64,000 nucleotides of DNA from Arthrobacter sp. KBS0702. Its GTDB lineage: Bacteria; Actinomycetota; Actinomycetes; Actinomycetales; Micrococcaceae. The position numbers were made by a program, and so were the translations under genes. A model generated the notes under the pieces. That model was not told the origin of the DNA, ran no database searches, and saw nothing but the letters and a program-made list of their open reading frames with translations. Each line of letters opens with the position of its first letter. Positions within the stretch are counted from its first letter, which is position 1. Of this stretch, positions 20,070 through 42,584 are shown one piece after another. The stretch spans positions 3,224,001 to 3,288,000 of the forward strand of contig NZ_CP042172.1 in NCBI RefSeq assembly GCF_005937985.2, read 5' to 3'.

Positions 20070-20420
20070 AACGCCCGCCGCCGGCCGCGCAAACTGAGCC
20101 GCAGCGGCGCCGCATACGCCCCGCCAGCCGCCAGTAATGAAGCATGCGTCCATCACCAGGATGAGGTCGGCGTCGCGCGGATGGTGGAGGGCCGGGGGAC
20201 CCTGCGGCAGGGGCTGCACGAACCGGTCCACGTGCGTGGCCTTCGCAGCCCCGAGCATTTCCTCTCGGTTGCAGAGCGGCGGCCGCAGACGATTTTGTCC
20301 CGCATGGTCCCGTCGAACAGCCACCTATCCTGCAGCGCTGCTCACCCGCGAGCGCGGCTCGGGCCGGGACATCTCGGCGACGTCCTCGCCGTTCCGCCTG
20401 GCGTCGAGCTCGTAGAACTA
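20070..20420 (-). pseudogene. Decayed copy 1 of an ABC-exporter ATPase domain
   Basis: The strand matches the 3' part of the intact exporter gene at 54254-56311 in order: the C-terminal Ala-rich end (about 20070-20145), the 'ATCACCAGGATGAGGTCGG' segment near 20153, then after a large deletion the stretches near 20200-20240, 20300-20330 and 20365-20420. The parts equivalent to about 54410-54610 are missing, and many substitutions and frame breaks are present. It is the most degraded of the three copies. It is not expressible. Confidence 0.7.
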
Positions 20421-20604
20421 CCCGAATGCCGTGCCGGCAGAGCGACACCGACAAGAACGATGGAGGGTCTCTTCCTCCATCGCCCTTTGCTTCTCCACCT
20501 CTGCGTCGGCTGGACGTGACGGAACCCCGACTTCGCCGTCGCAATGGCTGGCAGTAGGGCCGAACAACTCTCCGCGGCGCGCAGCCGGGCCGCCGCCATT
20601 TCCT

Positions 20605-20830
20605 AAACACTGGCTTCTGCGAGCTCCCTGGCACAGCGCAAGTCTTTAGAAGCGGTGAACTCGTCGGCCGGCGCGATTTCCTGGTATTCGACGTCGCGTA
20701 GAAGTACTCGCGTCGCGAGTTCACCAGGTTGACCCGCTGGCCGACGAAGTGCTGGCGGAGCATGGTTTCGATGCCCACTGCGTCTTTCGAGGAGAAGAAT
20801 GCGTGCACGTCCAAGAGGAAAGGAACGGAA
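20605..20830 (-). pseudogene. Fragment of a T5orf172/DUF4041-like protein, frameshifted
   Basis: The minus strand encodes '[20 protein letters not shown]' followed by '[15 protein letters not shown]', resembling the C-terminal half of GIY-YIG-related T5orf172 (DUF4041) domains. Near 20702 the reading continues in another frame ('[20 protein letters not shown]') to a TAG at about 20605. The upstream part of the gene is gone, and at about 20830-20860 the sequence changes abruptly to ABC-transporter DNA. Family assignment is from memory of the motif only. Confidence 0.4.
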
Positions 20831-20861
20831 GCGTCTCGAGTTCGCGCACACGATCCATGCG

Positions 20862-21345
20862 CGATGACAAACGACGTCCGGCCTGACCGCAGCGCGCTCA
20901 TGGCCTTCTGCACCAGCACCTCGGTCCGCGTATCCACGGACGATGTCGCCTCGTCCAGGATCAGTACCGACGGACGGGCCAGGAACGCCGGTTAGCAGCT
21001 GCTTCTCCCCCGCCGAGACGTTGGCGCCCTCGTCGTCGAGTACTGTGTCGTAGCCCTGCGGCAGGGACTTCACGAACCGGTCCACGTACGTCGCCTTCGC
21101 CGCCTCGCCTCGGTGGCACCGAGCCAGCCGTAGGCGATGTTGTCCCGGATGGTCCCGCCGAACAGCCAGGTGTCCTGCAGCACCATGCCCATCCGCGAGC
21201 GCAGCTCGTGCCGGGACATCGCGGCCACGTCCACGCCGTCCAGCGTGATCCGCCCGGCGTCGAGCTCGTAGAAGCGCATCATCAGGTTCACCAGCGTGGT
21301 CTTGCCGGCCCCGGTCGGGCCAACGATCGCCACGGTCTGCCGTCG
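20862..21345 (-). pseudogene. Decayed copy 2 of an ABC-exporter ATPase domain
   Basis: About 480 bases closely matching 54408-54905 of the intact exporter gene, in the same orientation. It encodes the Walker A region '[18 protein letters not shown]', the Q-loop '[20 protein letters not shown]', the D-loop region and '[16 protein letters not shown]'. Small deletions (near 20990 and 21105) break the frame, and the transmembrane half and C-terminus are missing. At about 21345 similarity ends and the promoter region of the glycerol-type operon begins. Clearly a duplicate fragment and not a gene. Confidence 0.85.
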
Positions 21346-21432
21346 AGACCCACGCCGGTCACGGACGGAGCGATTGCTGAGGGAGAACAGTTCCTAGTCG
21401 TCGCCCACTAGGAAAATTCAAAAAAACGACTG

Positions 21433-21465
21433 TTGCAATCCTCATCAGATGTGACTAGAGTCACG
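21433..21465 (+). promoter_or_regulatory. Promoter overlapped by a CRP/GlxR-like palindrome
   Basis: TTGCAA (21433-21438) and TAGAGT (21456-21461) are 17 bases apart, a good -35/-10 pair. TGTGACTAGAGTCACG (21450-21465) is a near-perfect match to the CRP-family pattern TGTGA-N6-TCACA and covers the -10. A protein bound there would block transcription, so repression rather than activation is the simplest reading. Function is inferred. Confidence 0.55.
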
Positions 21466-21483
21466 TGGGTCAGGGTAAGAATT

Positions 21484-21521
21484 GGAGACCTCCTGTTGGA
21501 GGCTCCATTCTGCCCTTTTTT
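21484..21521 (+). promoter_or_regulatory. Leader hairpin plus T-tract, possible GlpP antitermination target
   Basis: TGGAG-A-CCTCC pairs with GGAGG-CTCCA around a TGTT loop (about 21483-21507). Nine bases later comes a run of six T (21516-21521), all before the start codon at 21575. The operon encodes a GlpP antiterminator, which in Bacillus acts on such leader terminators. The spacer between stem and T-tract is longer than usual, so this is a candidate only. Confidence 0.4.
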
Positions 21522-21574
21522 GTACCCAGAAAAGACCTCTGACAGAAGGGTTTCCCGACAGAGAGGTCGGGCAG

Positions 21575-23008
21575 TTGAGTAACTTGGTAATTCGCGGCGT
21601 GCAGGACGTGGTCGCCTACATCGATGATCGTCCCAAAATTTCCGGCAGAGCCGGCTTGATCTGGTGGCTGGCCCTTGGCGGCCTGTTCCTGGATGCTTTT
21701 TCCAACTCGGCCTTGAGCGCCGGGCTTGGCCCAATGACAAAAGATCTTCATCTGAGCGCAGCCCAGGTTGCACTCCTCACTTCGCTCGCGTCCTGGGTCG
21801 CAATCGCCTTCAATCCCATCGGCGGCTGGATGGCGGACCGCTGGGGCCGGATCGCACCGCTTATTCTCGCTAAAGCCCTTGCCCTCATCGGCGCAGCTGC
21901 AGCCGCGTTCGCCCCGAACTTCGAGCTAGTGCTGACGGGCCGTTTCTTCGTTGGAGCCGCCTACGGCATCGACTTCGCGATCGCCATGGCTCTTCTGGCT
22001 GAATTTACTCCGGCAAAGTTTCGGAGTCGCCTGAATACCTGGCAGGGCATCTGGTACGTGGCGGTGAGCACCAACCTCGTGCTCGCCATCCTGTTCTACA
22101 ACATGGGCACCGGCGCAGCCATCTGGCGCTACGCAGTAGGCTCAGCCGGCGTCGTTGCGCTGATTCTGCTGGTTGCCCAGCTGCGCTACCTGGTCGAAAG
22201 CCCCACTTGGGCTGCCCGCAAGGGACTCCTAGAGCGCGCCGCAACATCCATGACCAAGATCTATGGCCAAACGTTCACTGCAGCCCCAGAAGCCGACCGG
22301 CTTCCCATCTTGAACCAGGCCACGCGAGGCGTGGCGAATGTGGCACTCATCTTCAGGGGAAGCTACCTGCCGCGCACCATTCTGGCCGGAACGGTTCAGA
22401 TGGCGCAGTCCATTCAGTACTTCGCAGTCGGGTGGTACCTGCCGATCATCAGCTTGACGCTCTTCGGCCAAGACTTCGTGGTGGCCACATTTGGCGCCCT
22501 CGTCTTCAACCTGTTCGGCATTGTGGGAGGGTTCCTCTCCCCGAAGATCGGCAATCGTCTGGGCCTCCGAAAGGCCTCAGCCCTTGGATTTGGCGCCGTC
22601 TTCATCATGCTGGTGGTGATGGGCCTCTTCTACCAAAGTATGCCGATCTTCCTGGCATTCTTGGTGCCTTCGTTGTTCATCCTGTTCCACTCAGGCGGCC
22701 CCGGCGCGAACGGCAAGAGCCTGTCGACACTTTCGTTCCGGAGCGAGCTTCGCGCAGGGGCAAATGGCATCATTGGGGCCATCGGAAGCGCCGGCGCGGC
22801 CCTCGGTCTGCTGGTGTTCCCACTTCTCAAGGAAGGGCTGGGCCTCGGACCGACCTTCCTGATCCTCTCCGTCGTTCCACTCATCGCCTGCATCGTGTGC
22901 TCGGTTATCAAGTGGGAGCCGACGCGAGCACTCCTCAGCCCGGACGAGGAACTGGACGCCCCGCAGTTCAAGAGCGACCTCGCCCGCATCGCGGTCCCCA
23001 CCAGCTAG
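21575..23008 (+). CDS. MFS transporter (sugar/polyol porter type)
   Basis: About 477 residues from TTG at 21575, with GAGAGG eight bases upstream; the frame is open from 21482 but those residues would fall on the leader hairpin. There are 12 hydrophobic segments. Loop 2-3 'GGWMADRWGRIAPLILAKAL' is the MFS signature, with a second copy-like 'SPKIGNRLGLRKA' after the central loop. It is first in an operon with glycerol-kinase-like and GlpD genes and takes the position usually held by the GlpF facilitator. It may import glycerol, glycerol 3-phosphate or a related polyol. The substrate is not determined by sequence. Confidence 0.85.
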   Translation: MSNLVIRGVQDVVAYIDDRPKISGRAGLIWWLALGGLFLDAFSNSALSAGLGPMTKDLHLSAAQVALLTSLASWVAIAFNPIGGWMADRWGRIAPLILAKALALIGAAAAAFAPNFELVLTGRFFVGAAYGIDFAIAMALLAEFTPAKFRSRLNTWQGIWYVAVSTNLVLAILFYNMGTGAAIWRYAVGSAGVVALILLVAQLRYLVESPTWAARKGLLERAATSMTKIYGQTFTAAPEADRLPILNQATRGVANVALIFRGSYLPRTILAGTVQMAQSIQYFAVGWYLPIISLTLFGQDFVVATFGALVFNLFGIVGGFLSPKIGNRLGLRKASALGFGAVFIMLVVMGLFYQSMPIFLAFLVPSLFILFHSGGPGANGKSLSTLSFRSELRAGANGIIGAIGSAGAALGLLVFPLLKEGLGLGPTFLILSVVPLIACIVCSVIKWEPTRALLSPDEELDAPQFKSDLARIAVPTS

Positions 23009-23024
23009 CCCGACGGAGCGATCA

Positions 23025-24530
23025 ATGAAAGTGCCGGCCATCTTGTCCATAGACGAAGGGACTACAGGCACGCGCGCTGCCTGGGTCACGGCCGACGGCG
23101 GCGTGCACTCTCTCGAGTACCGCCACCTCACCGTGAACAGTCCACGAGCCGGGGTAGTGGAACAGGACGCAAACGAAATCCTGGCCAAGACTATCGATGC
23201 CTGCCGCTCCGTGGTTGCAGCCGCCGCTGCGGCCGGTGTCCAGCTGCAGGCCTTGGCCATCGCCACGCAGCGATCAACGGCGGTGTTGTGGGATACCCGC
23301 AGCGGCCGCGCTCTGGTCCCTGCAATGGTCTGGCAGGACAGCCGCTATGCCGAGGAACTGGCCGAGCTCGGCGGCAGCTGGAACGAACGCCTCGTCGCCG
23401 CCGTGGGACGTCCCACCGGAGTGCGTTCACCCTACCTGTGGGCCGCACACCACCTCCGGGAGAGCCCGGAAGTGGCTGCGGCCCACGGGGAAGGGCGGTT
23501 AGGCTTCGGCACCGTCGAAACCTGGCTGCTCTGGAACCTGACCGTCGAGCGGAGCTACGTCGCCACCGCCACCAACGCCACCTCGGCCGGGGCCTACGTG
23601 CTGGCGGAGCATGCGTATGAAACGGCTTGGATTCAGGCGCTGGGCTTTCCCTTGGACCTGCTCCCGGAGTTGCGTCAAGACGTGGACGTGTTCGGCCATA
23701 CGGACGCGTCCAAGATCGGCATTTCAGTGCCGGTGCTCGCCGCTTTGGGAGACCAGCACGCCGGGACCGTGGGGCTGGGGTGCATCAGACCTGGCCAGGC
23801 GATGTGCGTCCACGGCACGGGCAGCTTCGTTGACCTCGTCACAGGCGACACCCTGCCGCAGAAGCCCGGCTTGTATCCCGGGACCCTGACCCTCACGGGC
23901 TGGCGGCGGGAGCACCAATCGGTGTACGCGGTTGAAACTTTCACCGCCACTACCGGATCAGCCATCGACTGGGTCTGCAACACCCTGGGATGGTTCAGCT
24001 CCGCCCAGAAGGTCAGCGAGCTCGCCGGGACAGTTGACGGGTCCGGCGGGGTCATGTTCGTTCCGGCCCTGACCGGGCTCAGGACACCCGTGGTGGAACC
24101 AAAGGCGCGCGCCTCCCTCACCGGGTTCTCCCTCGCGTCGACCAAAGCCGAAGTGGCTTATGCCGTACTGGAAGGCATCGCCCACTCCGTCGCCACCAGC
24201 ACGGAAGCCAACGCCGAAGTCGCCGGAATGGACGCAGACGAGATCGTCGTCGGCGGCGGCCTGTCCGGCAGCAATCCGCTTATCCAGATGCAGGCCGACC
24301 TGGTAGGCATCCCAATGCGGCGTCTGCCCGCCTCAGAAGCGGCAACGCTGCGGGGGGCCGCCTTCCTGGCCGGAGCGAATGGCCTGCTGTGGGACACGCT
24401 GTACGAAGCCGTTTCAGTGCTGGGCGACGGCGAAATTTTCCTTCCCCGACTTTCTGAGACGCAACGAGCCGAACGACGCCTGAGATGGGCGGCCCGTATT
24501 TCGGCCGAACTCGAACTGGCGCGCATTTAG
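23025..24530 (+). CDS. glpK: FGGY-family kinase, glycerol-kinase-like
   Basis: 501 residues. 'ILSIDEGTTGTRAAW' (about residues 6-20) is the phosphate-binding loop of glycerol kinases, and 'PAMVWQDSRYAEEL' the substrate region. 'CVHGTGSFVDLVTGD' and the C-terminal 'EIVVGGGLSGSNPLIQMQAD' form the ATP site. The gene is 17 bases after the MFS gene and followed by glpD, so glycerol to glycerol 3-phosphate is the likely reaction. True GlpK usually reads WQDRRT where this has WQDSRY, so a related polyol is possible. Confidence 0.82.
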   Translation: MKVPAILSIDEGTTGTRAAWVTADGGVHSLEYRHLTVNSPRAGVVEQDANEILAKTIDACRSVVAAAAAAGVQLQALAIATQRSTAVLWDTRSGRALVPAMVWQDSRYAEELAELGGSWNERLVAAVGRPTGVRSPYLWAAHHLRESPEVAAAHGEGRLGFGTVETWLLWNLTVERSYVATATNATSAGAYVLAEHAYETAWIQALGFPLDLLPELRQDVDVFGHTDASKIGISVPVLAALGDQHAGTVGLGCIRPGQAMCVHGTGSFVDLVTGDTLPQKPGLYPGTLTLTGWRREHQSVYAVETFTATTGSAIDWVCNTLGWFSSAQKVSELAGTVDGSGGVMFVPALTGLRTPVVEPKARASLTGFSLASTKAEVAYAVLEGIAHSVATSTEANAEVAGMDADEIVVGGGLSGSNPLIQMQADLVGIPMRRLPASEAATLRGAAFLAGANGLLWDTLYEAVSVLGDGEIFLPRLSETQRAERRLRWAARISAELELARI

Positions 24531-24616
24531 GGCGGTACGCCCGCCTCAGCCCGCGCCACCAAACGTAAAGCCACAGATCAGACAGATCAGCAGGCGCACA
24601 TAGAGAGACATAATCC

Positions 24617-26293
24617 ATGATTTCCATGCCTTCACGTAAACCTCGGGTGGACCGCGCCCGGATGGTCTCCGATACGCCGCTCAGAATAGACCGTGCGGAA
24701 CAGATCGGCAGCCTTGACAGTGGACGATTCGACATCGTCGTCGTGGGCGGCGGCGTGACCGGTGCCTACACAGCGATGGACGCGGCTCAACGCGGCTACC
24801 GGGTGGCCCTGTTAGAGAAAAACGATTTTGCCTCCGGTACTTCCTCCAAGTCATCCAAGATGATCCACGGCGGCCTGCGCTACATCGAACAAGGCAATCT
24901 GCCGCTCGTGCGTCACTCACTACTGGAGCGTCAACGGCTGCGCAAGAACGCCCAACACCTCGTACAACGCTTGCCGTTCCTGTTTCCCATCCTGTCCAAG
25001 GACGGCGTTTTCGACCGAAGACTGGCGGCCGGTTTCGAAAGCCTGTTGTGGACGTACGATCTGGCCGGGGGCTGGCGCGAAGGTGTAATGCACCAGAAGC
25101 TGACAAAGAACGAGGTGCTCTCCCACTGCCCCACCTTCAAGGCGGATCACTTAGAGTCCGGCCTCATGTATTACGATGCGCGGGCGGACGACGCCCGACT
25201 CACGCTGGCCCTCGCCCGGACGGCTGCCTTCCACGGCGCCACCGTTCTCAATGGCGCCAAAGTCAGCGACGTGACGCGTCAGGGGGGGAAGGTGAACGGC
25301 GTCGTGGTCGAAGTCGATGGCCGGGAGATCCGTGCTGAAGCCGGCGTCGTCGTGGTTGCTACCGGCGTGTGGCTCCGCGACTGGACGGGCGCGGGCTCAG
25401 GCGTTGATGCACCCAACATCCGCCCGGCAAAGGGCGTTCACGTCGCCGTGCCCTGGCTGAAAGTCCGCAACGACTGCACCGTCACCATCCCGATTCCCGG
25501 ACGTAACCGCCGCGCCACGATCACGCGTTGGGGAGACACGTCCTACCTCGGCACCACAGACGACGACTATGACGGCGACTTGGACGACGTCAACTGCACC
25601 CGCGAGGAACTGGACTTCCTGCTGGATGGCGCCCGCACCGCCCTGAACATCGATATCGAACCGGAGGACGTCCTAGGCAGCATCGGCGGCTGCCGCCCGC
25701 TGGTGGCCCCGCCGGGAGGGAAAACCCTTGAGGTCAAACGCAACCACGAGATCCGAACGGACCCGGACGGTCTGGTCACGGTGGTCGGAGGGAAACTGAC
25801 GACGTCCCGCCACATGGCGGAACAGACTGTCGACGCCGCTCAAGCAGTCCTCGGTCTGCGGCGCCCCTGCAGGACCAAGAACAGCTACCTTTTGGGAGCG
25901 GCGGGCTACGACGCCGAAGCGATCACAGCCACAGGAGGGCTGGCCTCACACCTAGGAGAGCGGTATGGCACGGAGGCCCGATTCGTGACAGATATTCTCT
26001 CGGAAGACCCAGCGCTGAACGTCCCGTTGGTCGAGGGCCTGCCCTACCTTGAGGCGGAGGTGATCTACTCCGCGCGCTACGAAATGGCCCGCAACGTGGA
26101 TGACATACTCTCGCGGCGCACCCGTTCGCGCATCATGTCCCGGGATGCCTCCGCCGCTTCTGCGGCACGCGTGGGCGAACTGCTGATGAAAGAACTCGAC
26201 CTGCCAGCAACCGAAGTCGAGGCCCAGGTGGCCTCCTACCGAAGCCAAATTGCGCACGAACGTGCAGTCCTGATGGGAGAGAACCAGAAATGA
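24617..26293 (+). CDS. glpD: Glycerol-3-phosphate dehydrogenase (FAD)
   Basis: 558 residues. 'FDIVVVGGGVTGAYTAMDAA' (about residues 35-55) binds FAD. 'FASGTSSKSSKMIHGGLRYI' (about 74-93) is the GlpD signature, and 'DTSYLGTTDDDYDGD' is the substrate-domain segment. The C-terminal helical DAO_C domain is present (about 420-550). It oxidises glycerol 3-phosphate to DHAP and feeds electrons to quinone at the membrane. The start is uncertain over the first 30 residues (several Met: 1, 4, 16). The next gene overlaps by 4 bases. Confidence 0.93.
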   Translation: MISMPSRKPRVDRARMVSDTPLRIDRAEQIGSLDSGRFDIVVVGGGVTGAYTAMDAAQRGYRVALLEKNDFASGTSSKSSKMIHGGLRYIEQGNLPLVRHSLLERQRLRKNAQHLVQRLPFLFPILSKDGVFDRRLAAGFESLLWTYDLAGGWREGVMHQKLTKNEVLSHCPTFKADHLESGLMYYDARADDARLTLALARTAAFHGATVLNGAKVSDVTRQGGKVNGVVVEVDGREIRAEAGVVVVATGVWLRDWTGAGSGVDAPNIRPAKGVHVAVPWLKVRNDCTVTIPIPGRNRRATITRWGDTSYLGTTDDDYDGDLDDVNCTREELDFLLDGARTALNIDIEPEDVLGSIGGCRPLVAPPGGKTLEVKRNHEIRTDPDGLVTVVGGKLTTSRHMAEQTVDAAQAVLGLRRPCRTKNSYLLGAAGYDAEAITATGGLASHLGERYGTEARFVTDILSEDPALNVPLVEGLPYLEAEVIYSARYEMARNVDDILSRRTRSRIMSRDASAASAARVGELLMKELDLPATEVEAQVASYRSQIAHERAVLMGENQK

Positions 26294-27813
26294 TTAGCAA
26301 AGAAGCGGTTAAGCGTGGCTACAACCGCGGGAACTACACCGTGGGCGCACCAACCCAGCCTCGCTTCGCCCAGAGCGTCGGCGACGTAGCCGGCGAACCG
26401 GCCTTCTCAATCAACCCCGTAACCGTTCCGAAGGAGACTGTCGAACGCCTCCGGGCCGCAGCAGACCAGGTCATTACCGACCCCGCCCTCGTAAGGGAGG
26501 GCACCCGAGACTGGTGGGCCGGGACCATGATCGCCGAAACGGGCGGCCGCCCGACAACCCCCGAAGCGGTGATTGTGCGCGTGTCCAGTACCGAACAGGT
26601 GCAAGAGGTCATGCGGATCGCGTACGCGGATAACCTCCCGGTCACTGTGTCCGCCGGTCGGAGCAACGTCACCGGATCAGCTTTGCCAGTCAGCGGCGGT
26701 ATCGTTCTGGATGTCTGCGGTCTTAACAAGTTCACCGCCTATGACGAGGAAAGCCAGCTCGTTGAGGTGGAGGCCGGTGTTTTCGGCGACATCTTCGAGG
26801 AGCAGATCCAGTCGGAGTATGGCATGACGCTGGGGCACTGGCCCTCCTCCTACGCCATCAGCACCGTGGGCGGCTGGGTCGCGTGCCGAGGCGCTGGTCA
26901 GCTCTCCACCCGGTACGGCAAGATCGAGGACATGGTCCACGGACTCGACGTCGTCCTGGCCAACGGTGACCTCGTTAGCCTCGGTAACGGCACTCGGGCT
27001 GCCGTCGGGCCCGATCTTTTGCAGCTTTTCATCGGTTCCGAGGGCACGCTCGGCGTCATCACGAGAATCCGTTTCAAGTTGCATCGGTTGCCGGAGCACG
27101 GGCGGGCGATCGCCTACGGGTTCAATACTTTCGCTGAGGGCCTGGAGGCGTGCCGGCAGATCATGCAGCAGGGTGCCACGCCTGCAGCCCTGCGGCTATA
27201 TGACGAGCTTGAAAGCGGCCTGCAGTTCGGTCTTCCCGACACGAACGTTCTGCTCGTCGCGGATGAGGGCGAGAAGGAGGTAGTTGAGGCCGGTCTGACC
27301 GTGAGCGAATCGGTCTGCGCTGGAAATGCCGTGAAACTCGACGGCGATGCCATCTTCGAACGGTGGTTGGACACCCGTTACCTGACAGGCAAGAGCGCGG
27401 AGGGGTTCAAACCCAGCCCAGGTCTCGTGGCGGACACCTTGGAGATGATCGGAAACTGGAGGGACCTGCCGGCCATTTACGACGAGGTCGTGGCGGCAAT
27501 CAACGCCGTGCCCGGTACCTTGGCTGGTTCCGCTCACCAGTCGCACGCTTATGTTGACGGCGCCTGCCTGTACTTCTCGCTGCGCGGAGAGGTACCGGTC
27601 GGCGACAGGGCGGGCTGGTATCGTGCGGCATGGGACGCGGCCAACGAGGTGATTCTCCGGTATGGAGCCACCCTCAGCCATCATCACGGCGTCGGCCTCC
27701 TGCGCGCGCCGTATATGGCGGAGTCGCTGGGTAGCGGATTTGAAGTACTCCGCGCCGTCAAGACCGCGCTGGATCCCAAGAACCTGCTCAACCCGGGCAA
27801 GCTGGGACTGTAA
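26290..27813 (+). CDS. FAD-linked oxidase, alkyl-DHAP-synthase-like
   Basis: 507 residues. The PCMH-type FAD domain spans about residues 95-275 ('PVTVSAGRSNVTGSALPVSG', 'LGHWPSSYAISTVGGWVACR', 'FIGSEGTLGVIT'). The C-terminal cap ends with 'LSHHHGVGLLRAPYMAESLG', the HHH motif associated with AGPS, and 'ALDPKNLLNPGKL'. AGPS swaps the acyl group of acyl-DHAP for an alkyl chain; relatives oxidise D-2-hydroxy acids. The position between glpD (which makes DHAP) and glpP suggests a DHAP- or G3P-linked substrate. The precise reaction is unknown. ATGA overlap with glpD shows coupling. Confidence 0.85.
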   Translation: MISKEAVKRGYNRGNYTVGAPTQPRFAQSVGDVAGEPAFSINPVTVPKETVERLRAAADQVITDPALVREGTRDWWAGTMIAETGGRPTTPEAVIVRVSSTEQVQEVMRIAYADNLPVTVSAGRSNVTGSALPVSGGIVLDVCGLNKFTAYDEESQLVEVEAGVFGDIFEEQIQSEYGMTLGHWPSSYAISTVGGWVACRGAGQLSTRYGKIEDMVHGLDVVLANGDLVSLGNGTRAAVGPDLLQLFIGSEGTLGVITRIRFKLHRLPEHGRAIAYGFNTFAEGLEACRQIMQQGATPAALRLYDELESGLQFGLPDTNVLLVADEGEKEVVEAGLTVSESVCAGNAVKLDGDAIFERWLDTRYLTGKSAEGFKPSPGLVADTLEMIGNWRDLPAIYDEVVAAINAVPGTLAGSAHQSHAYVDGACLYFSLRGEVPVGDRAGWYRAAWDAANEVILRYGATLSHHHGVGLLRAPYMAESLGSGFEVLRAVKTALDPKNLLNPGKLGL

Positions 27814-27874
27814 TTTCACTACGGTTGATCCATTGTCCGCTTGCGTCCCTTGATCACGAGATGAGACCTCAAGA

Positions 27875-28456
27875 ATGATTGATTTTCCCGAAGATCTGGA
27901 CGCAAAGCTGACCAGGAACCCGGTGATTGCCTCCGTCTTCGGTGCGGAGTCCGTTGCCGGGTTCCTGAACTCCGACTGCCAACTCTGCATCCTGGCCAAC
28001 GTTTCCCTCCACGAGTTGGAGGGACTGCTGCAGCTGCTGGACCGAGCCGGAAAATTCACCTTCGTCAACATGGATGCCTGCTCCGGGCTGGGACAGGACC
28101 GTGGCGCAGTCGAGTACCTGAAAAAGATAGGGACCCAAGGCATTGTCAGCACTAAGACGGCCATGATCCAGCGTGCCAACAGCCTGAGCATGGTGACCAT
28201 GCAAAAGGTCTTCGTAACGGACCGGTCCAACCTGCCCCGCAGCGCGGCCGCGCTGGAGCAAAGCAAACCTCACCTGGTGCAGGTCATGCCCTGGCCCGTG
28301 ATCTCACACCTGACAGAGGGTGAGAAGCGCAGCCTCTCACCCTTCGTCGCTGCCGGCTTCGTCCGTACCGGGGCCGACGTGGCCACGGCGCTGAGAGCGG
28401 GCGCAAAGGGCGTCTCCACCAGCGCCAAGGAGCTGTGGGATCAAGCTGGCCGTTAG
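27875..28456 (+). CDS. glpP: Glycerol-3-phosphate-responsive antiterminator, GlpP family
   Basis: 193 residues, normal for GlpP. Family stretches include 'FLNSDCQLCILANVSLHELE', 'FTFVNMDACSGLGQD', 'GIVSTKTAMIQRANSLSMVT' and 'VQVMPWPVISHL', the last forming part of the phosphate site. The C-terminal 'GFVRTGADVATALRAGAKGVSTS' is the TIM-barrel phosphate-binding end. In Bacillus subtilis GlpP with G3P prevents termination in glp leaders. Here it sits inside the operon it may control, whose leader has a candidate hairpin. GlpP is best known from Firmicutes. Confidence 0.9.
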   Translation: MIDFPEDLDAKLTRNPVIASVFGAESVAGFLNSDCQLCILANVSLHELEGLLQLLDRAGKFTFVNMDACSGLGQDRGAVEYLKKIGTQGIVSTKTAMIQRANSLSMVTMQKVFVTDRSNLPRSAAALEQSKPHLVQVMPWPVISHLTEGEKRSLSPFVAAGFVRTGADVATALRAGAKGVSTSAKELWDQAGR

Positions 28457-29684: not shown

Positions 29685-29724
29685 TGTTCTCCAATTCGTA
29701 GACGCCCCCGGCGGTGTTCCGGCG

Positions 29725-34304: not shown

Positions 34305-35224
34305 CATTGAACCCAACGGAGATCGCCAGACTCACCCGTCTCGAAACGGAGGGCACTGATTCACGCTACGCCGACATAGACAAAATGTCGGTCGGGGAAC
34401 TCGCCGCGACCATGAACACCGCCGACGCTTCCGTGCCGGAAGCAGTCAGGCGCGCCCTCCCCCAGATAACGTCCGCAATTGAGGCCGCCGTGTCCCGTAT
34501 GAAGAGAGGAGGGAGAATGATCTACGTGGGTGCAGGGACACCCGGGCGGATCGGCGTCCTCGACGCATCAGAATGTCCGCCGACTTTCGGCACCCCCCCG
34601 GAACAGGTGTTCGCCGTCATGGCCGGGGGTCCGCGCGCGATCGTTTCGCCAAGCGAAGGCGCAGAAGACGACACGGAGGCAGGAACGACCGCGATGGACG
34701 CGGCAGGGGTAGGGGCGCTGGATACCGTTATTGGCGTCGCGTCCAGTGGCCGGACACCGTACGTCGTCGCTGCTTTGGAGCGTGCCCGTGCCAACGGAGC
34801 CCTCACTATCGCTCTGACCTGCAATGCGGGGACACCATTGTCGGCCGCGGCGGAACATCGGATCGAGGTTCTCGTCGGCCCGGAAGTAATCGCAGGCTCC
34901 ACCCGCCTGAAGGCCGGCACAGCCCAAAAACTCGTGCTGAACATGTTTTCCACCATCGTGATGGTCCAACTGGGCAAAACCTACGGAAATCTCATGGTCG
35001 ATGTGAAGCCCACGAATGCCAAGTTGCGCGAACGGTCCCTCCGGATTATCCAAACCGTCACGGGAGCCGGGAGAACCACGGCAGCCGAGGCCCTGGCCGC
35101 GAACAACCATTCGGTCAAGCAAGCAATTGTCGCCATCCGGCTGAATCTCGGACCGGAGGACGCCGCTGCTCAAATTACACAGAACGGCGGGCGGCTCCGT
35201 GCCGCCCTTGGGGAGCACGCATGA
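34301..35224 (+). CDS. murQ: N-acetylmuramic acid 6-phosphate etherase
   Basis: 307 residues from ATG at 34301; the open frame upstream belongs to the permease region. 'LTRLETEGTDSRYADIDKMS' at the N-terminus, 'RMIYVGAGTPGRIGVLDASE' (about 68-87) and 'PSEGAEDD' contain the two catalytic glutamates. 'IGVASSGRTPYVVAAL' is the SIS phosphate loop, and 'TYGNLMVDVKPTNAKL' is a MurQ hallmark. It removes D-lactate from MurNAc 6-phosphate to give GlcNAc 6-phosphate for NagA. It overlaps both neighbours by 4 bases. Confidence 0.96.
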   Translation: MTLNPTEIARLTRLETEGTDSRYADIDKMSVGELAATMNTADASVPEAVRRALPQITSAIEAAVSRMKRGGRMIYVGAGTPGRIGVLDASECPPTFGTPPEQVFAVMAGGPRAIVSPSEGAEDDTEAGTTAMDAAGVGALDTVIGVASSGRTPYVVAALERARANGALTIALTCNAGTPLSAAAEHRIEVLVGPEVIAGSTRLKAGTAQKLVLNMFSTIVMVQLGKTYGNLMVDVKPTNAKLRERSLRIIQTVTGAGRTTAAEALAANNHSVKQAIVAIRLNLGPEDAAAQITQNGGRLRAALGEHA

Positions 35225-36390
35225 AAATCTTGGGCATGATTTCAGGAACGTCGCACGACGGGATCGATGCTGCCGTCGTGGAATTCAGCGAACAGGACGG
35301 GCACCTCACCGGCAGGGTGCTCCAGACCGCGAGCACACCATACCCACCATCCCTCAGAGCCCGCATCCTCCGCGCTCTTCCTCCTGCGGCCACCACACTT
35401 GCGGAGATTTGTGAGCTCGATACGCTCGTGGGACAAAGTTTCGCTGAGTCAGCCGTCGACATCCTTAGAGGTACAGGCCCGGTTGACCTAGTCGTCTCCC
35501 ATGGCCAGACAGTCTTCCACTGGGTGGAGGAAGGACGGGCCCGCGGAACACTCCAGATCGGCCAGCCCGCCTGGATCGCGGAAGCTACCGGGGCGCCGGT
35601 GCTTTCCGACGTCCGGATCCGGGACATCACCGCCGGCGGTCACGGTGCCCCGTTGGTCTCGTACCTGGACGCCCTCCTGCTGGCGGGCCACGCTGGCACG
35701 GCAGCGGCGCTCAACCTCGGCGGCATCGCCAACATGACGGTCGTCTTCGGAAGCGCGGACCTCCTCGCCTACGACATCGGACCCGCCAATGCCCTCATCG
35801 ATGCCGTCATCGCCGACCGCAATCTCCACCCCGACGGTTACGACGCCGACGGACGGATCGCCGCGACCGGCGCCGTCGACGGTATCCTCCTCGAAGCGCT
35901 GATGGCCGATGAGTATTTCGACCTGCCCATTCCCAAATCCACGGGCAAAGAGCATTTTCATCTCGCCTACGTACAAGAAATGCTGCAGACGACGGGGCGG
36001 ACGCCCAGTGATGCCGATCTGGTCGCCACGTTAACCGAACTGACGATCCGAACGGTTGCCAGAGAAGCGCAGAACCACGGAGTCGACCTCCTTGTCGCTT
36101 CCGGCGGCGGATGCCGCAACCAGGTTCTGATGAACGGGCTGCGACGAGCCCTCCCGGACGTGGCAATTAAATTTTCCGACGACTACGGCGCCCCGGCTGA
36201 CGACAAGGAAGCAATCGCATTTGCGCTCATCGGGTGGTGTACCGCCCACGGTCTGCCCGGCACGGTACCGGCCGGAACCGGGGCGCGGGAGAGCCGAATT
36301 CTCGGCACAATCACCCCAGGCCACGGGCCGTTGAACCTTCCGACACCCAAGCGAACCGCGCCCCGGACACTCGCGCTCGTGCGCCCCTGA
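35221..36390 (+). CDS. anmK: Anhydro-N-acetylmuramic acid kinase
   Basis: 389 residues from ATG at 35221. 'MISGTSHDGIDAAVVEF' is the ATP-binding start (most homologues read GTSMDGID). 'SHGQTVFHW', 'LNLGGIANMTV', 'YDIGPANALIDAVI' and 'LLVASGGGCRNQVLMNGLRR' follow the AnmK order. It opens the 1,6-anhydro ring of anhMurNAc while phosphorylating it, giving MurNAc 6-phosphate for MurQ next door. Its presence implies that the imported material comes from lytic transglycosylases. A much longer open frame upstream (from 34573) is the murQ shadow. Confidence 0.95.
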   Translation: MKILGMISGTSHDGIDAAVVEFSEQDGHLTGRVLQTASTPYPPSLRARILRALPPAATTLAEICELDTLVGQSFAESAVDILRGTGPVDLVVSHGQTVFHWVEEGRARGTLQIGQPAWIAEATGAPVLSDVRIRDITAGGHGAPLVSYLDALLLAGHAGTAAALNLGGIANMTVVFGSADLLAYDIGPANALIDAVIADRNLHPDGYDADGRIAATGAVDGILLEALMADEYFDLPIPKSTGKEHFHLAYVQEMLQTTGRTPSDADLVATLTELTIRTVAREAQNHGVDLLVASGGGCRNQVLMNGLRRALPDVAIKFSDDYGAPADDKEAIAFALIGWCTAHGLPGTVPAGTGARESRILGTITPGHGPLNLPTPKRTAPRTLALVRP

Positions 36391-36404
36391 ATCGAAAAAT
36401 CACC

Positions 36405-36968
36405 ATGACCCACACCATGCGCTGCGCGACGGCCAAGGACATTGAAGCGATCGTAGGAGTCTTCCTCGCCTGCTGGCGCGGCCCCTACGCGCATGTCCTT
36501 CCCGCGAGCGCCGTCCAGCAGATGACTGACGAACGTGCCCTCCGGTTGTGGAGTGAAGCGTTTGCAGACCGGGTAGAGCCGGACGAAATCATGGTCGCGA
36601 GCGGTGGCGAGGAAAGCGCTGCCTGCGGGGTTGTACGTTACGGTCTCGCCGGCGACGGGGACCGGGGGACCATCTGGTCGCTCTACGTCGACCCATCCGC
36701 CCAGGGCGCCGGTTTGGGCTCCCGGCTCCTCCGGACTGCGGAGGAGGCTTTGACGAGGAAAGGAGCAAAATCGGCGAGCCTATATGTGTTCGCCCGAAAC
36801 GCACCATCCATTGCCTTCTACTGTCATCACGGGTGGAAGGCCGCTCACCAGAACGGTGAGACCCGCTATGACTTCGGCGAACCGGTGTTGACGCTGACGA
36901 AGACGCTCTCCCCCGCGGCTGGGCCGCTTGCAGCGGTTTCCGAGCCTGACGAAGGACCCACGCCATGA
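36405..36968 (+). CDS. GNAT-family N-acetyltransferase
   Basis: 187 residues from ATG at 36405. 'TIWSLYVDPSAQGAGLGSRL' (about 88-107) contains the Q/RxxGxG/A acetyl-CoA loop, and 'ASLYVFARNAPSIAFYCHHG' the conserved C-terminal motif B. It lies between anmK (14 bases) and the AmiE-like gene (4-base overlap), so it is co-transcribed with muropeptide recycling genes. An acetyl acceptor such as an amino sugar, diaminopimelate or peptide amine is possible. No established recycling role is known to me. Confidence 0.85.
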   Translation: MTHTMRCATAKDIEAIVGVFLACWRGPYAHVLPASAVQQMTDERALRLWSEAFADRVEPDEIMVASGGEESAACGVVRYGLAGDGDRGTIWSLYVDPSAQGAGLGSRLLRTAEEALTRKGAKSASLYVFARNAPSIAFYCHHGWKAAHQNGETRYDFGEPVLTLTKTLSPAAGPLAAVSEPDEGPTP

Positions 36969-38110
36969 CGGACATGATGCAGGCTGCAAGCCGCATGGTC
37001 ACATCGGCGCTTGATGCGTCTCCGGGCGCGCAGTCCCCTGTCGGGGTCACCTTGGGAGTGCAGAACGCCCGATTTTCCACCATTGTTTCGGCAGGCTTTC
37101 GAACAGCCACGTGGATTGATGGCGTGCGGCTGGGAGTTGACCCCATGACCGTAGACACCCACCACGACATGGCCTCAGTCAGCAAGGTGCTGGCGACGAC
37201 CGCCTGTCTGATCCGGCTGGTGTCCGACGGGCTCGTTCGCCTCGAGGACCCGGTAAAACGCTATCTCCCAGGATTCGCCGGCGGCGGCCGGGAGACTGTC
37301 ACCATACGCGACCTGCTCCTCCATCGGGGCGGGCTGAAGGAGTGGTACCCGCTGTACGCGGTGACTACTGACCCCGAAGAAGCTCACCGCCTCGTCGAGA
37401 CACTCCCACTGCGGTTCAAACCGGGCGCCGCCCGCCACTACTCCGATCTGGGCTTCATACTTCTCGGACGCATCGTGGCCAGAGCCGCGGGTTTGGATCT
37501 CGCGTCAGCTGCTGAGGAACTCATCCACCGGCCGCTCCGGCTCACCTCAACGCAATACGCGCGACCGGCTGGCGCGGACGTGGCGACCGGTGCCCGGGAC
37601 GACCGGATCGAAGCGACCATGATCGATTCGAACGTTCCCTACGAGGTCCCTTTCCACAGCACCGACTTCGCGGGCTGGCGGCTCCGGCCGGTACACGGCG
37701 AGGTCGCTGACGGCAACGCCCACCACGCGTTCGGCGGAGTATCCGGACACGCGGGCTTGTTCTCCACGGTCCCGGACCTGCTCCGTTTCGGTGCCGCGTT
37801 GGCCGCCTACGAGGACCATGAAACATTGTGGCGCGCATCCGTCGTCGCAGAGTTCTTTGCGCCCGGACCCGACGCCGGACAGTCCCTGGGATTCCGCCGA
37901 TACCAGATGCAGGTCGGCGATGAGTCATACACGGTGCTTGGCCATCCAGGTTACGTCGGGTGCGCCGTCGGCTTTGTTCCTGAACGAGGCATAGCACTGG
38001 CGCTGGCAAGTAACCGCCTCCTCGTGAATGACACTCCCGTCGCGACAGACGTGTTGTGGACAGAACTCCTCCAAACGGCAGGCGAAGAGATTGAGCGACT
38101 GAGCCCATGA
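36965..38110 (+). CDS. Beta-lactamase-fold serine hydrolase, AmiE-like candidate muramyl amidase
   Basis: 381 residues. The serine-hydrolase motifs of class C/PBP-like folds are present: S71-x-x-K74 ('MASVSKVLATT'), Y159-S-D ('RHYSDLGFILLGRI') and a late 'GHPGYVGC' in place of KTG. In Bacillus subtilis a protein of this fold (AmiE/YbbE) is encoded beside murQ and cleaves N-acetylmuramyl-L-alanine, so the same role is a reasoned inference here. Unlike the Bacillus protein, no signal peptide is visible, which would place it in the cytoplasm after uptake. An esterase or D-peptidase role cannot be excluded. Confidence 0.82.
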   Translation: MTDMMQAASRMVTSALDASPGAQSPVGVTLGVQNARFSTIVSAGFRTATWIDGVRLGVDPMTVDTHHDMASVSKVLATTACLIRLVSDGLVRLEDPVKRYLPGFAGGGRETVTIRDLLLHRGGLKEWYPLYAVTTDPEEAHRLVETLPLRFKPGAARHYSDLGFILLGRIVARAAGLDLASAAEELIHRPLRLTSTQYARPAGADVATGARDDRIEATMIDSNVPYEVPFHSTDFAGWRLRPVHGEVADGNAHHAFGGVSGHAGLFSTVPDLLRFGAALAAYEDHETLWRASVVAEFFAPGPDAGQSLGFRRYQMQVGDESYTVLGHPGYVGCAVGFVPERGIALALASNRLLVNDTPVATDVLWTELLQTAGEEIERLSP

Positions 38111-39825
38111 AGGCCCGCACAGCGTCAAACTCCGCCCCGAGCTTCCCGCAGCCCAGCAACAGAGAGAAACAGGCTATGTCTGCCCCTTCCCCGGTCCTTT
38201 CCATAAAGAATCTTTCGGTCGCATTCGGCACAAGAGCACGGCGCCAGACAGTGGTCCGCGACGTGTCCCTGGACGTCTTCCCAGGACAAACCGTCGCCGT
38301 CGTTGGCGAATCCGGGTCGGGAAAGTCCACGACCGCAGCAGCCGTCAACCGGCTGCTTCCCTCCAACGGGCAGATAACCGGGGGCGACATCTACTTCGAC
38401 GGCGCGAACCTCGCCGACGCCTCCCCCCGGGAAATGTTGGCGATCCGCGGGGCCAAAATCGGGTTCGTTCCCCAGGACCCGATGTCCAATCTGAATCCGC
38501 TCATGCGAATCGGAGACCAGATTGCAGAGGCGCTGGAAGTCCACGGCCGCCCCCTGGGCACCGGCGGGCGGGAGGAAGTCATCGAGCTCCTCAACATGGT
38601 CGGCATCCCGCAGCCGGAGCGCAGGCTGAGCCAATACCCGCACGAATTCTCCGGCGGCATGCGCCAGCGGGTCCTGATAGCAATCGGGCTGGCCTGCCGT
38701 CCTCGGCTCCTGATTGCCGACGAGCCGACTTCAGCACTTGACGTTACGGTGCAGAGACGCATCCTCGACCGGCTTGGAGAGCTGACAGCCCAGATGGACA
38801 CGGCCGTATTGCTCATCACCCACGACCTCGCACTGGCCGCCGAACGCGCGGACTCCATCGTGGTCATGCGGCAGGGACAGATCGTCGAATCGGGCCCCGC
38901 AACCAACATCCTGAACAACCCCCAGGATGACTACACCAAACGCCTTCTCCAGGCTGCGCCCAGCCTGACTTCCCGGAGCCTCGTCATGGAAACCCCGGCG
39001 GGCGGCGCCGTGCGCACGACCGAAGAAGCCGAGGACACCATTGTCGACGTCCGCAACCTAAGCAAGACCTTCACCATCCGTGGTTCCAGTGGCAAGACGG
39101 GCACAGCGTTCACCGCGGTCGACGACATCAGCTTCAGCATCCCACGTGGCAAAACTGTCTCGATTGTCGGGGAGTCAGGATCCGGGAAATCGACAACTGC
39201 GAACCTCATGCTCGGCCTTGAGGACATCAGCGCTGGGCAGATCCTCTTTGACGGAACCGACGTAGCAACCCTGGGCAGACGGGAGCTCTTCGCTTTCCGC
39301 CGCCGGGTCCAGCCGGTATTTCAAAACCCCTACGCTTCCCTTGACCCTCGCTACACCATCGCTGAATCAATTACCGAGCCCCTTCGCGTGCACCGCGTCG
39401 GCACCAAGGGCGCACGCCGTAAGCGGTGCCTTGAGCTGCTGGACCAAGTCGCCCTGCCGGCAGCTCATGCGGAGCGACTGCCCCACGAGCTCTCCGGAGG
39501 TCAGAGGCAACGCGTTGCGATCGCCCGCGCCTTGGCGCTCTCCCCCGAACTCGTCGTGCTCGATGAGGCTGTCTCCGCTTTGGATGTTCTCGTCCAAGCC
39601 CAAACGCTGGACCTGCTCGCGGAGCTGCAAAGAGAGCTGAACGTAAGCTACCTCTTCATCAGTCACGACCTCGCCGTCGTCCGGATGATTTCCCACGCCG
39701 TCCACGTCATGCAGCACGGCAAAATCGTTGAAAGCGGCAGCCCATCGGACATCTTCGACCGCCCCCAAGCTGACTACACCCGGGAACTCCTCGCCGCGAT
39801 CCCTGCTGTCAAGGCCGGCACATAA
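38107..39825 (+). CDS. Fused ABC importer ATPase (DppD-DppF type, two nucleotide-binding domains)
   Basis: 572 residues with two complete ATPase domains. Domain 1 (about 30-280) has Walker A 'VVGESGSGKSTTAAAV', signature 'FSGGMRQRVLIAIGLA' and Walker B 'LLIADEPTSALD'. Domain 2 (about 315-560) has Walker A 'IVGESGSGKSTTANLM', signature 'LSGGQRQRVAIARALA' and 'LVVLDEAVSALD'. The first ATG overlaps the AmiE-like stop by 4 bases. An internal ATG at 38176 closer to domain 1 may be the main start. It powers the importer encoded at 30836-34304. Gene order separates it from its permeases by four enzyme genes. Confidence 0.92.
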   Translation: MKARTASNSAPSFPQPSNREKQAMSAPSPVLSIKNLSVAFGTRARRQTVVRDVSLDVFPGQTVAVVGESGSGKSTTAAAVNRLLPSNGQITGGDIYFDGANLADASPREMLAIRGAKIGFVPQDPMSNLNPLMRIGDQIAEALEVHGRPLGTGGREEVIELLNMVGIPQPERRLSQYPHEFSGGMRQRVLIAIGLACRPRLLIADEPTSALDVTVQRRILDRLGELTAQMDTAVLLITHDLALAAERADSIVVMRQGQIVESGPATNILNNPQDDYTKRLLQAAPSLTSRSLVMETPAGGAVRTTEEAEDTIVDVRNLSKTFTIRGSSGKTGTAFTAVDDISFSIPRGKTVSIVGESGSGKSTTANLMLGLEDISAGQILFDGTDVATLGRRELFAFRRRVQPVFQNPYASLDPRYTIAESITEPLRVHRVGTKGARRKRCLELLDQVALPAAHAERLPHELSGGQRQRVAIARALALSPELVVLDEAVSALDVLVQAQTLDLLAELQRELNVSYLFISHDLAVVRMISHAVHVMQHGKIVESGSPSDIFDRPQADYTRELLAAIPAVKAGT

Positions 39826-39843
39826 ACGGAAGGCCCTACTGCA

Positions 39844-41124
39844 ATGGTCCACAGTAAACCTGGCGACGACGCACTTCGGGCGCGCGTTCCAAAGGCAAAG
39901 GGACTGAGCCTCAACTCGGGGAGGCCGCCACAGTGGACGTCCAGTGTAGGGCTGTTCACTGCCTTCGCGGGCCTGGGCGGCACTGCCTCCGTAATCCCAG
40001 CGATCATTCCCCTTACCGCCCACAACTCCAACGCATCGTTATCGGAATACCTTGGCGTCGCTCCTGCACTCTTCTTCGGGCTGATGGCAGGGGTGCTGCT
40101 CTCCGCAATACTGCTGAGGGCAACTTCCGCGCGAGCCGTCCTCTGCGCCGGATCGGTCCTTCAAGCCGCCGCTCTCATTGCCATCGCCCTCGCACCAGAC
40201 AGGTCTGCCTTCGGTATGTGGGCGTCGGCCGCCGGAGTCGGATTCGGTTTGTGCGAAGCCAGTGGCAGCGTGCTGGCCCGTGTCGTTGCCGGCGACAGGG
40301 CAGCGCGATTGTTGTCAGCCCTCACCGGGACCGTTGCCCTCGTCGCCGCCGCCGGACCGCTGTTTATCGTCTCCGGCATACTCGGTGCGAGCCCTGCCCC
40401 TCTGTTGGCCTCGACTGCGCTTGTCCACGTGGCTACGGTCCTCTTTCAGTTCCTCGGGCCAAAACGACATCTCGGAGAGCATGCGGACCGTGGCATCCGC
40501 ACCCGAGCCCCGGCGCCGGCCCCCTCAATTTCCTGGGTCCTTCTGCTGGCTCCCGTAGCGGCAGCCCTCTTCATTTATGTCGGAATCGAAACAATATTCG
40601 CTGGCTGGTCAGCAGTGATCGCGGCGGAAGCCCTGGCTTTGGACCCCCGCACGGCTGCGGCAGGCACTTCCGTTTTTTGGGTGCTGATGGCCGCTGGCCG
40701 CTACGCGGCGTGGTTCACACTCAAGTCATCAGTGACGCCGTCAGCGCTCCTTGCCTTCACGTGCACCCTGGCTGCCGTGTGTTTTGCTGGAGCGGGAATT
40801 CTCAGGCAGGAACAACCGGCGGTGGCGTTGGTCGCGACAGGCGTGGCCATCGCAGGGCTCGGCCCTACGTACTCACTGGTTCTCGGAATCGGGCTCTCCC
40901 GGATAGAGGTCCACGACGCAAAGAAGGCGGTGGGGCTGCTGGTCGCCTGCGGCGCGGCAGGCGGGGCAGGCATACCGGCGGCGCTCCTCACTGTCACCCC
41001 GCACCCCGGAGCCCCCTGGGTCCTAGTGACGTCTGCCCTTCTGACGGCCCTTATTGCACCCCTGATATTCCATAAAACGCCCCGACCGCCGGAACGACCG
41101 GCAGAAAATAAGGCACGTCAATGA
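39844..41124 (+). CDS. MFS transporter of unknown substrate
   Basis: 426 residues, about 12 hydrophobic segments after a 35-residue hydrophilic start. 'VGLFTAFAGLGGTASVIPAI' opens the first helix. It is fairly divergent and has no clear A-motif that I can name. It lies 18 bases after the importer ATPase and overlaps nagA by 4 bases, so it belongs to the muramate operon. It might carry a second form of the substrate (free amino sugar, anhydro sugar) or export a by-product. It is not recognisably AmpG. Confidence 0.75.
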   Translation: MVHSKPGDDALRARVPKAKGLSLNSGRPPQWTSSVGLFTAFAGLGGTASVIPAIIPLTAHNSNASLSEYLGVAPALFFGLMAGVLLSAILLRATSARAVLCAGSVLQAAALIAIALAPDRSAFGMWASAAGVGFGLCEASGSVLARVVAGDRAARLLSALTGTVALVAAAGPLFIVSGILGASPAPLLASTALVHVATVLFQFLGPKRHLGEHADRGIRTRAPAPAPSISWVLLLAPVAAALFIYVGIETIFAGWSAVIAAEALALDPRTAAAGTSVFWVLMAAGRYAAWFTLKSSVTPSALLAFTCTLAAVCFAGAGILRQEQPAVALVATGVAIAGLGPTYSLVLGIGLSRIEVHDAKKAVGLLVACGAAGGAGIPAALLTVTPHPGAPWVLVTSALLTALIAPLIFHKTPRPPERPAENKARQ

Positions 41125-42299
41125 AAGATGGACCTTCCCGCAGCGACGACGGACCCTTCGTCATCCACAACATCACGGCCATCGACGCCACAAAAACCAT
41201 TGAGAACGCGTGGATTAGCGTGGTCTCAGGCCGAATTCAGGACATGGGTCAGGGCTCTTCATGGCAGGCTGCCTCTGTCCCGTGGAAGGCCGTGGTGGAT
41301 GGGCGGGGCGGCTACGTCACGCCCGGCTTTATCGACGTCCATTTTCACGGAGGCGGCACGCACAGCAATGAACACGGGCCACAGGCCATCATGGCTGCCT
41401 TGGCAGCCCACCATGCCCACGGGACCACGCGCGCCGTCGTGAGTTTTGTGGCCAACCCCGTACCCGAGCTCATGACCAACCTCAAGGTGGTTGCTGAACT
41501 CGCAGATACCTCGCCGCTGGTTCTGGGCAGCCACTTGGAAGGGCCGTTTCTTGCCAGGGGGCGGAGAGGCGCCCATAACGCGCAACATCTGGTTGCACCG
41601 GCCGACAGCAACATCAGCCAGCTCATCGAGGTCGCCCGTGGAACACTGCGGCAGGTCACCATTGATCCGGACCAGCCGGGAGCTTTCGAGGCGATCAGAG
41701 AGTTTTCGCGGGCCGGTGTCAGCGTCTCGATCGGACACACCGAGGCAAGCTACGAAACGTCCCTGGCGGCTTTCGAGGCCGGCGCGACGATGCTGACCCA
41801 CACCTTCAACGCCATGCCCGGGATCCACCACCGAGAACCGGGTCCCATTATCGCTGCCCTGGATCAAAGCGCATATATGGAACTCATCCTGGACGGAATC
41901 CATGTCCATCCCCGAGTGGCCGCCATGGTGTTCCGGCTCGCACCCGGACGCGTGATGCTCATTTCCGACGCCATGGCAGCAGCAGGCGCACCGGATGGAT
42001 CCTATGAACTCGGCGATCTGAGGGTCGAAGCCGGCGATGGCAGGGCTGTGCTGGCAGGAACAAACACGCTGGCCGGTTCTATGCTCACGCTCGATAAGGC
42101 GCTGCGGCTAGCGATTGGCAACGACATTGACCCGAATGTCGTAGTTGAGGCGTTGACTCTTACTCCAGCCCGGATGCTAAACCTGCAGGACAAACTGGGT
42201 CTACTGTCGCCGGGATACGAAGCCGACCTTGCTCTCTTCGACCCCGACTGGAATGTCACGGCCACGTTCGCCGCAGGCCGCTGCCTTTTTGGTCGGTGA
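41121..42299 (+). CDS. nagA: N-acetylglucosamine-6-phosphate deacetylase
   Basis: 392 residues. '[17 protein letters not shown]' is the metal-region HxH. '[19 protein letters not shown]' holds the metal Glu, '[12 protein letters not shown]' and '[16 protein letters not shown]' add His ligands, and the catalytic Asp is in '[11 protein letters not shown]'. It makes glucosamine 6-phosphate from the MurQ product; NagB is encoded at the other end of the cluster. The C-terminus ([19 protein letters not shown]) looks complete, yet within about 15 bases of its stop the DNA turns into a truncated ABC-transporter copy. Confidence 0.95.
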
Positions 42300-42311
42300 T
42301 CCGCCGGCAAG

Positions 42312-42584
42312 CGGTGCTCCACGATCTGGCCGGCCTCCATCACCAGGATGAGGTCGGCGTCGCGGATGGTGGAGAGCCGGTGCGCGATCACGAAGGACGT
42401 CCGGTCCGAGCGCAGCGCGCTCACCGCCTTCTGCACCAGCACCTCGGTCCGGGTATCCACGGAGGACGTTGCCTCGTCCAGGATCTCCGTCTCGGAAGCA
42501 TCCGGCCGGCCGTAGGCGATGTTGTCCCGGATGGTCCCGCCGAACAGCCACGTGTCCTGCAGCACGCACCATGCCCATCCGTGG
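42312..42584 (-). pseudogene. Truncated copy 3 of an ABC-exporter ATPase domain
   Basis: It matches the intact exporter gene over about 54340-54760, same orientation. It encodes '[20 protein letters not shown]' then jumps to '[20 protein letters not shown]' and '[20 protein letters not shown]'. A 159-base segment is missing exactly between two copies of TCCAGGATC (54504-54512 and 54663-54671 in the intact gene), leaving one copy at 42477-42485. Walker A, the signature motif and the membrane domain are absent. It is not functional. Confidence 0.85.

Follow-up and report, generated by a model that had tools for sequence, protein, structure and literature searches.

The window analyzed here is a 64,000-nucleotide stretch of the Arthrobacter sp. 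KBS0702 genome (NZ_CP042172.1, positions 3,224,001 to 3,288,000 of the forward strand). It contains the genes for two halves of an ATP-binding cassette (ABC) exporter, abcA and abcB, and, on the 3′ side of abcB, a series of gene modules separated by displaced pieces of the abcB 3′ end, which we call scars. The interval 3′ of abcB is hypervariable between conserved flanking genes, and across the genus it is an acquisition site. Relatives are same-genus genomes referred to by handles (G031, G018 and so on). From the exporter genes towards falling coordinates, the features are as follows, with the positions of pieces given as distance in bp from the abcB stop codon:

56308–58044, minus strand: abcA, the partner exporter half upstream of abcB (Pfam)
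54254–56311, minus strand: abcB, an intact ABC exporter half (Pfam ABC_membrane and ABC_tran)
42611–53435: cargo 1, with a MatC-type carrier, a binding-protein transporter and others; common to G211 (94%) at the same site
42315–42581, minus strand: scar F3, abcB 3′ pieces 88–258 and 403–509; 88–92%
28914–42299: muramate module; matched in G018 at 85% over 13.4 kb
21482–28456, plus strand: glycerol-type module; similarity to relatives continues to ~28755
20858–21341, minus strand: scar F2, abcB 3′ piece 154–655; 88% (92% without gaps)
20636–20857: remnant, 78–81% to part of a DUF4041/T5orf172 gene in the same site of G198
20069–20417, minus strand: scar F1, abcB 3′ pieces 2–153 and 358–587; the most decayed
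18299–20068: ~1.8 kb without recognized genes; low G+C in its outer part (~56%)
13415–18298: flank at the far side, conserved, with VWA and AAA genes plus one other; next to abcB in G031, the site of which is nearly empty

BLASTN of abcB (54254–56311, minus strand) against the window placed all three scars on one strand and on the 3′ side of the intact gene, with E-values for the window matches of 0 to 5e-19. Each scar comes from the ATPase-domain end of abcB, and the transmembrane half is present in none. These alignments bear out an earlier, sequence-only reading of the window, which had noted three same-orientation ABC-exporter ATPase fragments and an intact homologue. F3 is composed of 42315–42485 (88–258; 88%) and 42471–42581 (403–509; 92%), with an internal deletion located at a 9-base repeat. 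The parts of F1, 20069–20195 (2–153) and 20200–20417 (358–587), show 71% and 79% identity with gaps counted, or ~87% and 83% without. Judging from their sequence layout, F1 and F2 may form one scar complex, since the first F1 part stops at 153 and F2 starts at 154, and the DUF4041/T5orf172 remnant is wedged between them. Stretches similar to this remnant are also present in G014, G020 and G021.

We identified abcB as both the source of the displaced pieces and the near anchor of the site. F2 scores 652 bits against abcB and 91 bits against abcA; because the partner gene scores far less, the pieces derive from abcB. No displaced abcA pieces were seen, only weak cross-matches of abcA to abcB pieces. 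Other ABC exporter genes are present in the same genome. When 19600–21482 was used as a query against that genome, identity of at least 80% over at least 80 bases was found only for the query itself, intact abcB and F3, with the remaining matches of such lengths at 65–78% (19 matches in all). The window and own-genome alignments thus reject unrelated exporters as the source of the pieces.

Our survey of the region 3′ of abcB covered 71 genomes, of which 57 were picked for contiguity; the 14 others were the window, 10 fetched mostly for two copies already seen and 3 picked for two copies. The 57 were chosen among the matches listed, include not every contiguous genome and lean towards window-like abcB. 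Pieces that measure at least 50 bp, score at least 60 bits and lie no more than 17 kb from abcB were found in 14/57 contiguity-picked genomes and 12/14 others (26/71 in all), and several genomes hold two or more scars. All 42 pieces lie on the abcB strand, none lies on the opposite strand, and none reaches beyond 1048 bp from the stop codon. At a looser limit, a single weak match (43 bits, G035) appeared on the opposite strand, outside the 3′ part. The suggestion that the exporter gene is a repeated landing site is supported for the window and extends to the genus. In other genera of the family, no close match pair was present among the matches listed (120 genomes, 6 of them of the genus).

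As a control, we used 1051 tiles of 1.1 kb from the same 71 regions, with abcB-like and metH-like stretches masked (metH is introduced below). Partial duplicates were found for 21/1051 tiles, with 11 same-strand and 12 opposite-strand matches. Given this low rate and mixed strands, against 42 same-strand abcB pieces, we rejected chance or general repeat richness as the source of the pieces. A first control (27/71 abcB ends, 74/1051 other tiles) was set aside because its tiles include the scars themselves and because abcB matches can include the abcA end.

Alternatively, entire tandem copies of the exporter operon could have decayed to leave these pieces, with no link to the cargo. Decay of the pieces is plain and the genome does hold other ABC exporter genes, but 0/42 reach into the first kilobase of the gene, and side and strand are the same for all of them. 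The 5′ half of abcB occurs in second copies in 0/42 near pieces, and no full second abcAB was seen at the scar position in the fetched regions of relatives. Module borders, moreover, coincide with pieces in G018 and G211. We consider this explanation highly improbable.

Sites of several relatives represent distinct states of the interval. In G031, 1.36 kb separate abcB from the flank, and this nearly empty site holds neither module nor piece. It provides the uninterrupted exporter copy, in a relative lacking the window's catabolic genes, that the sequence-only reading had proposed to look for. G024 has abcB, 0.86 kb, a piece (0–554 from the stop codon), ~4.7 kb and the flank, and so a piece with no module. 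G018 has intact abcB, the muramate module, one piece (1–631), ~5 kb and the flank; its site lacks cargo 1 and the glycerol-type module, and the muramate module sits between the intact gene and the single displaced piece. G211, the closest relative by abcB end among the matches listed, has abcB, cargo 1, a piece (511–638) and a shortened flank; the glycerol-type and muramate genes are absent, and G211 probably lost them by a deletion that also cut the flank and the piece. In G126, cargo 1 (89%) lies ~8 kb farther from abcB than in the window, with no piece above the survey threshold between them.

These layouts bear on how the window was assembled. The segment between F2 and F3 does consist, as had been noted, of the glycerol-type genes followed by the muramate genes, and exporter similarity resumes just after the nagA stop codon (~15 bases). 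The idea that this segment is one block between two matching brackets did not survive. The muramate module is full-length in 2/198 genomes, the window's own and G018, with 38 others matching only a stretch of it at 65–71%; the glycerol-type module occurs in its own genome and 3 others of the 198, at 71–73%. Because these distributions differ, we rejected the block as a single acquired unit. A plasmid holding the block was also rejected (8 records match, best coverage 12%). From the G018 and G211 layouts, a piece lies on the outer side of the muramate module both in G018 and in the window, and F3 goes with cargo 1, which G211 shares without the block. On the favored reading, the right-hand bracket of the block belongs to another arrival, that of cargo 1. 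Of the earlier proposals, that of a repeated landing site is supported; that of the block moving as one unit through copies of the exporter gene is not.

Cargo elsewhere in the genus was sampled by Pfam scans of thirty chosen proteins from ten genomes, a sample rather than a census. Between abcB and the scar we found catabolic, transport and regulatory families (Rieske oxygenase, glycosyl hydrolase 15, amino acid permease, LysR) and, in G074, endonuclease VII and HSDR_N families. Beyond the scar lie Shedu SduA and a NYN protein in G085 (locus L145); PRTase-CE, ORC-CDC6-like and CARF proteins in G145 (L129); a KAP/PifA-like protein in G098 (L140); SLFN in G198 (L162); and an OLD/Gabija-like ATPase in G080 (L137). 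Many sampled cargo proteins have no family match, and several of these adjoin the defence-like genes.

Known islands at gene ends restore their target gene with their own copy, and a site-specific integrative element could likewise target the abcB 3′ end, its integrase since lost from most copies. Such an element would account for the intact gene, the displaced 3′ ends in direct orientation and the stacking. We compared by eye the Phage_integrase (PF00589), rve (PF00665) and Resolvase (PF00239) matches of 12 genomes with their site coordinates. In 12/12 genomes the site is free of PF00589 and PF00239 matches, and the thirty cargo proteins include no integrase. An rve match falls inside the site in one genome (G192:C1:2436400, L171) and in none of the other 11; other transposase families were not searched. 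It lies between two scar halves whose positions overlap by ~10 bp, and probably marks the splitting of a scar by an insertion sequence. A comparison of 18 inner scar edges gave several positions, with no short core sequence constant at the two ends. The wide variation of scar edges and the length of the pieces, up to 1 kb, also argue against the element, and we regard it as improbable. In the window itself, consistent with the sequence-only reading, there is no Phage_integrase, rve or Resolvase match, other transposase families not having been searched. As for insertion sequences that might bracket the block, its edges are exporter pieces.

In some species a second gene, metH, serves as far anchor of the site. 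Some metH sequence lies downstream of abcB in 29/71 regions; where a metH piece borders an abcB piece, the metH piece is a 5′ part and the two share a strand. In G115, G192, G021 and twice in G004, metH ends at nucleotide 743–746 and is fused to an abcB piece starting 1036–1048 bp from the stop codon. Similar shorter fusions occur in G013 (metH end 731, abcB 882) and G187 (metH end 699, abcB 720). Pieces from the middle or 3′ part of metH are present in G010, G076, G095, G148 and G174; in addition, G004 has a small inverted piece. A far-anchor start joined to a near-anchor end is the trace expected of a tandem duplication or an added circle. A second abcB match also lies 284–335 kb from the intact gene in G001 (L182), G029 (L184), G006 (L185) and G017 (L186), and on another contig in G134 (L187). 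All five are 3′ pieces, and those of G001, G029 and G006 lie within ~7 kb of metH; to judge from these sequences, the far pieces are likely the footprint of an earlier neighbourhood. The G029 far piece reaches ~1.23 kb, so 1048 bp is not an absolute limit and is doubtful as a sequence-specific one; it looks like one shared junction.

The fusions bring in the chief rival explanation, that one old tandem duplication, from the abcB 3′ end to the metH 5′ part, gave rise to two slots with a scar between them. Slot cargo would then have turned over by ordinary replacement, extra scars would stem from local duplication, and arrivals would make no scars. This would explain why the ~746/~1048 fusion is common to several genomes, why 0/42 near pieces reach beyond 1048 bp, and why scars lie near metH even in the three genomes with intact abcB 284–335 kb away. 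But in a tree built with FastTree from 71 intact ends and 26 scars, read for topology only and without branch supports, the scars do not form one group, although exchange with gene ends could blur this. Two or more scars in several genomes, the ~1.23 kb reach in G029 and the different modules exactly between intact gene and piece in G018 and G211 are also at odds with a single duplication. We consider it unlikely, though less so than the integrative element.

Exchange between scars and gene ends is evident from two genomes. G115 and G192 have 11.4 kb of common cargo (96.9%), and their intact abcB genes are 92–99% identical in the first ten 120-base windows and 83–98% in the last seven. Over six consecutive 60-base windows ~740–380 bp from the stop codon, intact abcB of G192 is 100% identical to the scar of G115 and differs from G115's own intact abcB; G192's own scar is of a third type. 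This pattern of identity indicates that homologous exchange between scar and gene end has happened.

Taken together, we favor additive homologous recombination in abcB, the outer joint being non-homologous or circular, a reading of sequence comparisons to which we assign a probability of roughly 0.6. Incoming DNA carrying a donor abcB 3′ end and neighbouring cargo would recombine in resident abcB, which would stay intact as a hybrid. Homology would play no part in joining the other end (one-sided, homology-facilitated illegitimate recombination); alternatively, the incoming DNA would be circular (Campbell-type insertion). The old 3′ end would be displaced outward as a truncated scar and then decay, and repetition would stack modules with the newest beside abcB. 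For the window, parsimony favors arrival of the muramate module first (F2/F1 scar complex) and of cargo 1 later (F3); the glycerol-type module has no scar of its own.

Divergence at four-fold sites gives some indication of age. Between the window and G211, it is 0.10–0.16 for four cargo 1 genes and 0.12–0.18 for flank and exporter genes; as these are alike, cargo 1 probably predates the split of the two. Between the window and G018, ten muramate genes differ at 725/2189 sites (0.33), more than the 300/1399 (0.21) of four flank and exporter genes.

Several observations weigh against additive recombination. No circle or live event was observed. No piece was found in 43/57 contiguity-picked genomes, and the absence of the block in G211 fits loss and never having had it alike. 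The 746/1048 joint looks, from its sequence, like one event, inherited or spread, rather than many. Outer joints in the window's clade lack an anchor-gene fragment: beside the clade's scars, matches to metH are only weak, except for a known metH start in G154. A query of ~2 kb of metH plus neighbouring cargo found no metH in 8/8 clade or related genomes besides the query's own (E ≤ 1e-40). Finally, when the nearest relative was chosen by the 5′ half of abcB, the intact end was closer to it in 22/25 cases and the scar in 3/25. The simple expectation of a native scar and an imported intact end therefore fails; scar decay, for which no correction was applied, could explain this result.

We also considered a further reading, in which the site is a self-multiplying landing pad: each arrival would add a direct-orientation copy of the abcB 3′ end, and this fresh homology could serve both the arrival that follows and the release of cargo as a circle. 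We put this forward tentatively, as possible but doubtful. If true, it would constitute a stackable, mobile module array in the chromosome that needs only host recombination enzymes.

The remaining features concern gene content. The muramate module encodes nagB, an RpiR regulator, a solute-binding protein, OppB, OppC, AnmK with an extra N-terminal part, GNAT, a beta-lactamase family protein, fused ABC ATPases, MFS and nagA. In the 605-residue frame 34573–36390, the AnmK family match is limited to residues 218–582; the first 216 residues match no family, yet also align with relatives, among them G018 and Cryobacterium (L019). The glycerol-type module encodes MFS, an FGGY kinase, GlpD-like and GlcD-like oxidases and, as its last gene (27875–28456), a glycerol-3-phosphate-responsive antiterminator (G3P_antiterm). 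Both module names are predictions after the protein families found. G+C across the block is 59–66% in 1-kb windows. Segment 18299–20068 has no match in the 183 loci fetched and is probably cargo, the decay of which we infer.

Gene-acquisition hotspots without mobile elements are common, and the addition of cargo, as opposed to its replacement, usually leaves no trace. The displaced abcB ends provide a layered record from which arrival order and mechanism can be read across the genus and directly tested, and the site is a place to seek uncharacterized defence genes. A literature search, with subscription journals mostly outside its reach, found no description of displaced gene-end scars at abcB among the papers listed.

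Among known systems, integrative and conjugative or mobilizable elements (ICE/IME type) accrete at gene 3′ ends. Like them, the abcB site shows tandem stacking, displaced 3′ ends in direct orientation and an intact target gene; unlike them, it has no integrase found, no constant core and variable pieces of up to ~1 kb. Homology-facilitated illegitimate recombination and Campbell-type circle insertion are known from laboratory transformation and single loci. They share with our model a single homologous joint, a second joint that is non-homologous or circular, and a far anchor fused to the near anchor; they differ in that the abcB case is drawn from comparison only and that its site appears to have been used repeatedly. 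Homology-assisted illegitimate recombination is discussed in the available part of PMC2884548. A further parallel is given by the gene-transfer hotspots without mobile elements that, in the available part of PMC5635113, recombine in flanking core genes, with replacement by double homologous recombination as the model. As described there, they resemble the abcB site in having a hypervariable interval by conserved genes and defence and metabolic cargo and, as far as the 12 genomes checked for Phage_integrase and Resolvase and the pair G115/G192 show, in lacking recombinases and bearing signs of homologous exchange in the flanking gene. Unlike those hotspots as there described, the abcB site adds cargo and keeps the displaced gene ends as scars.

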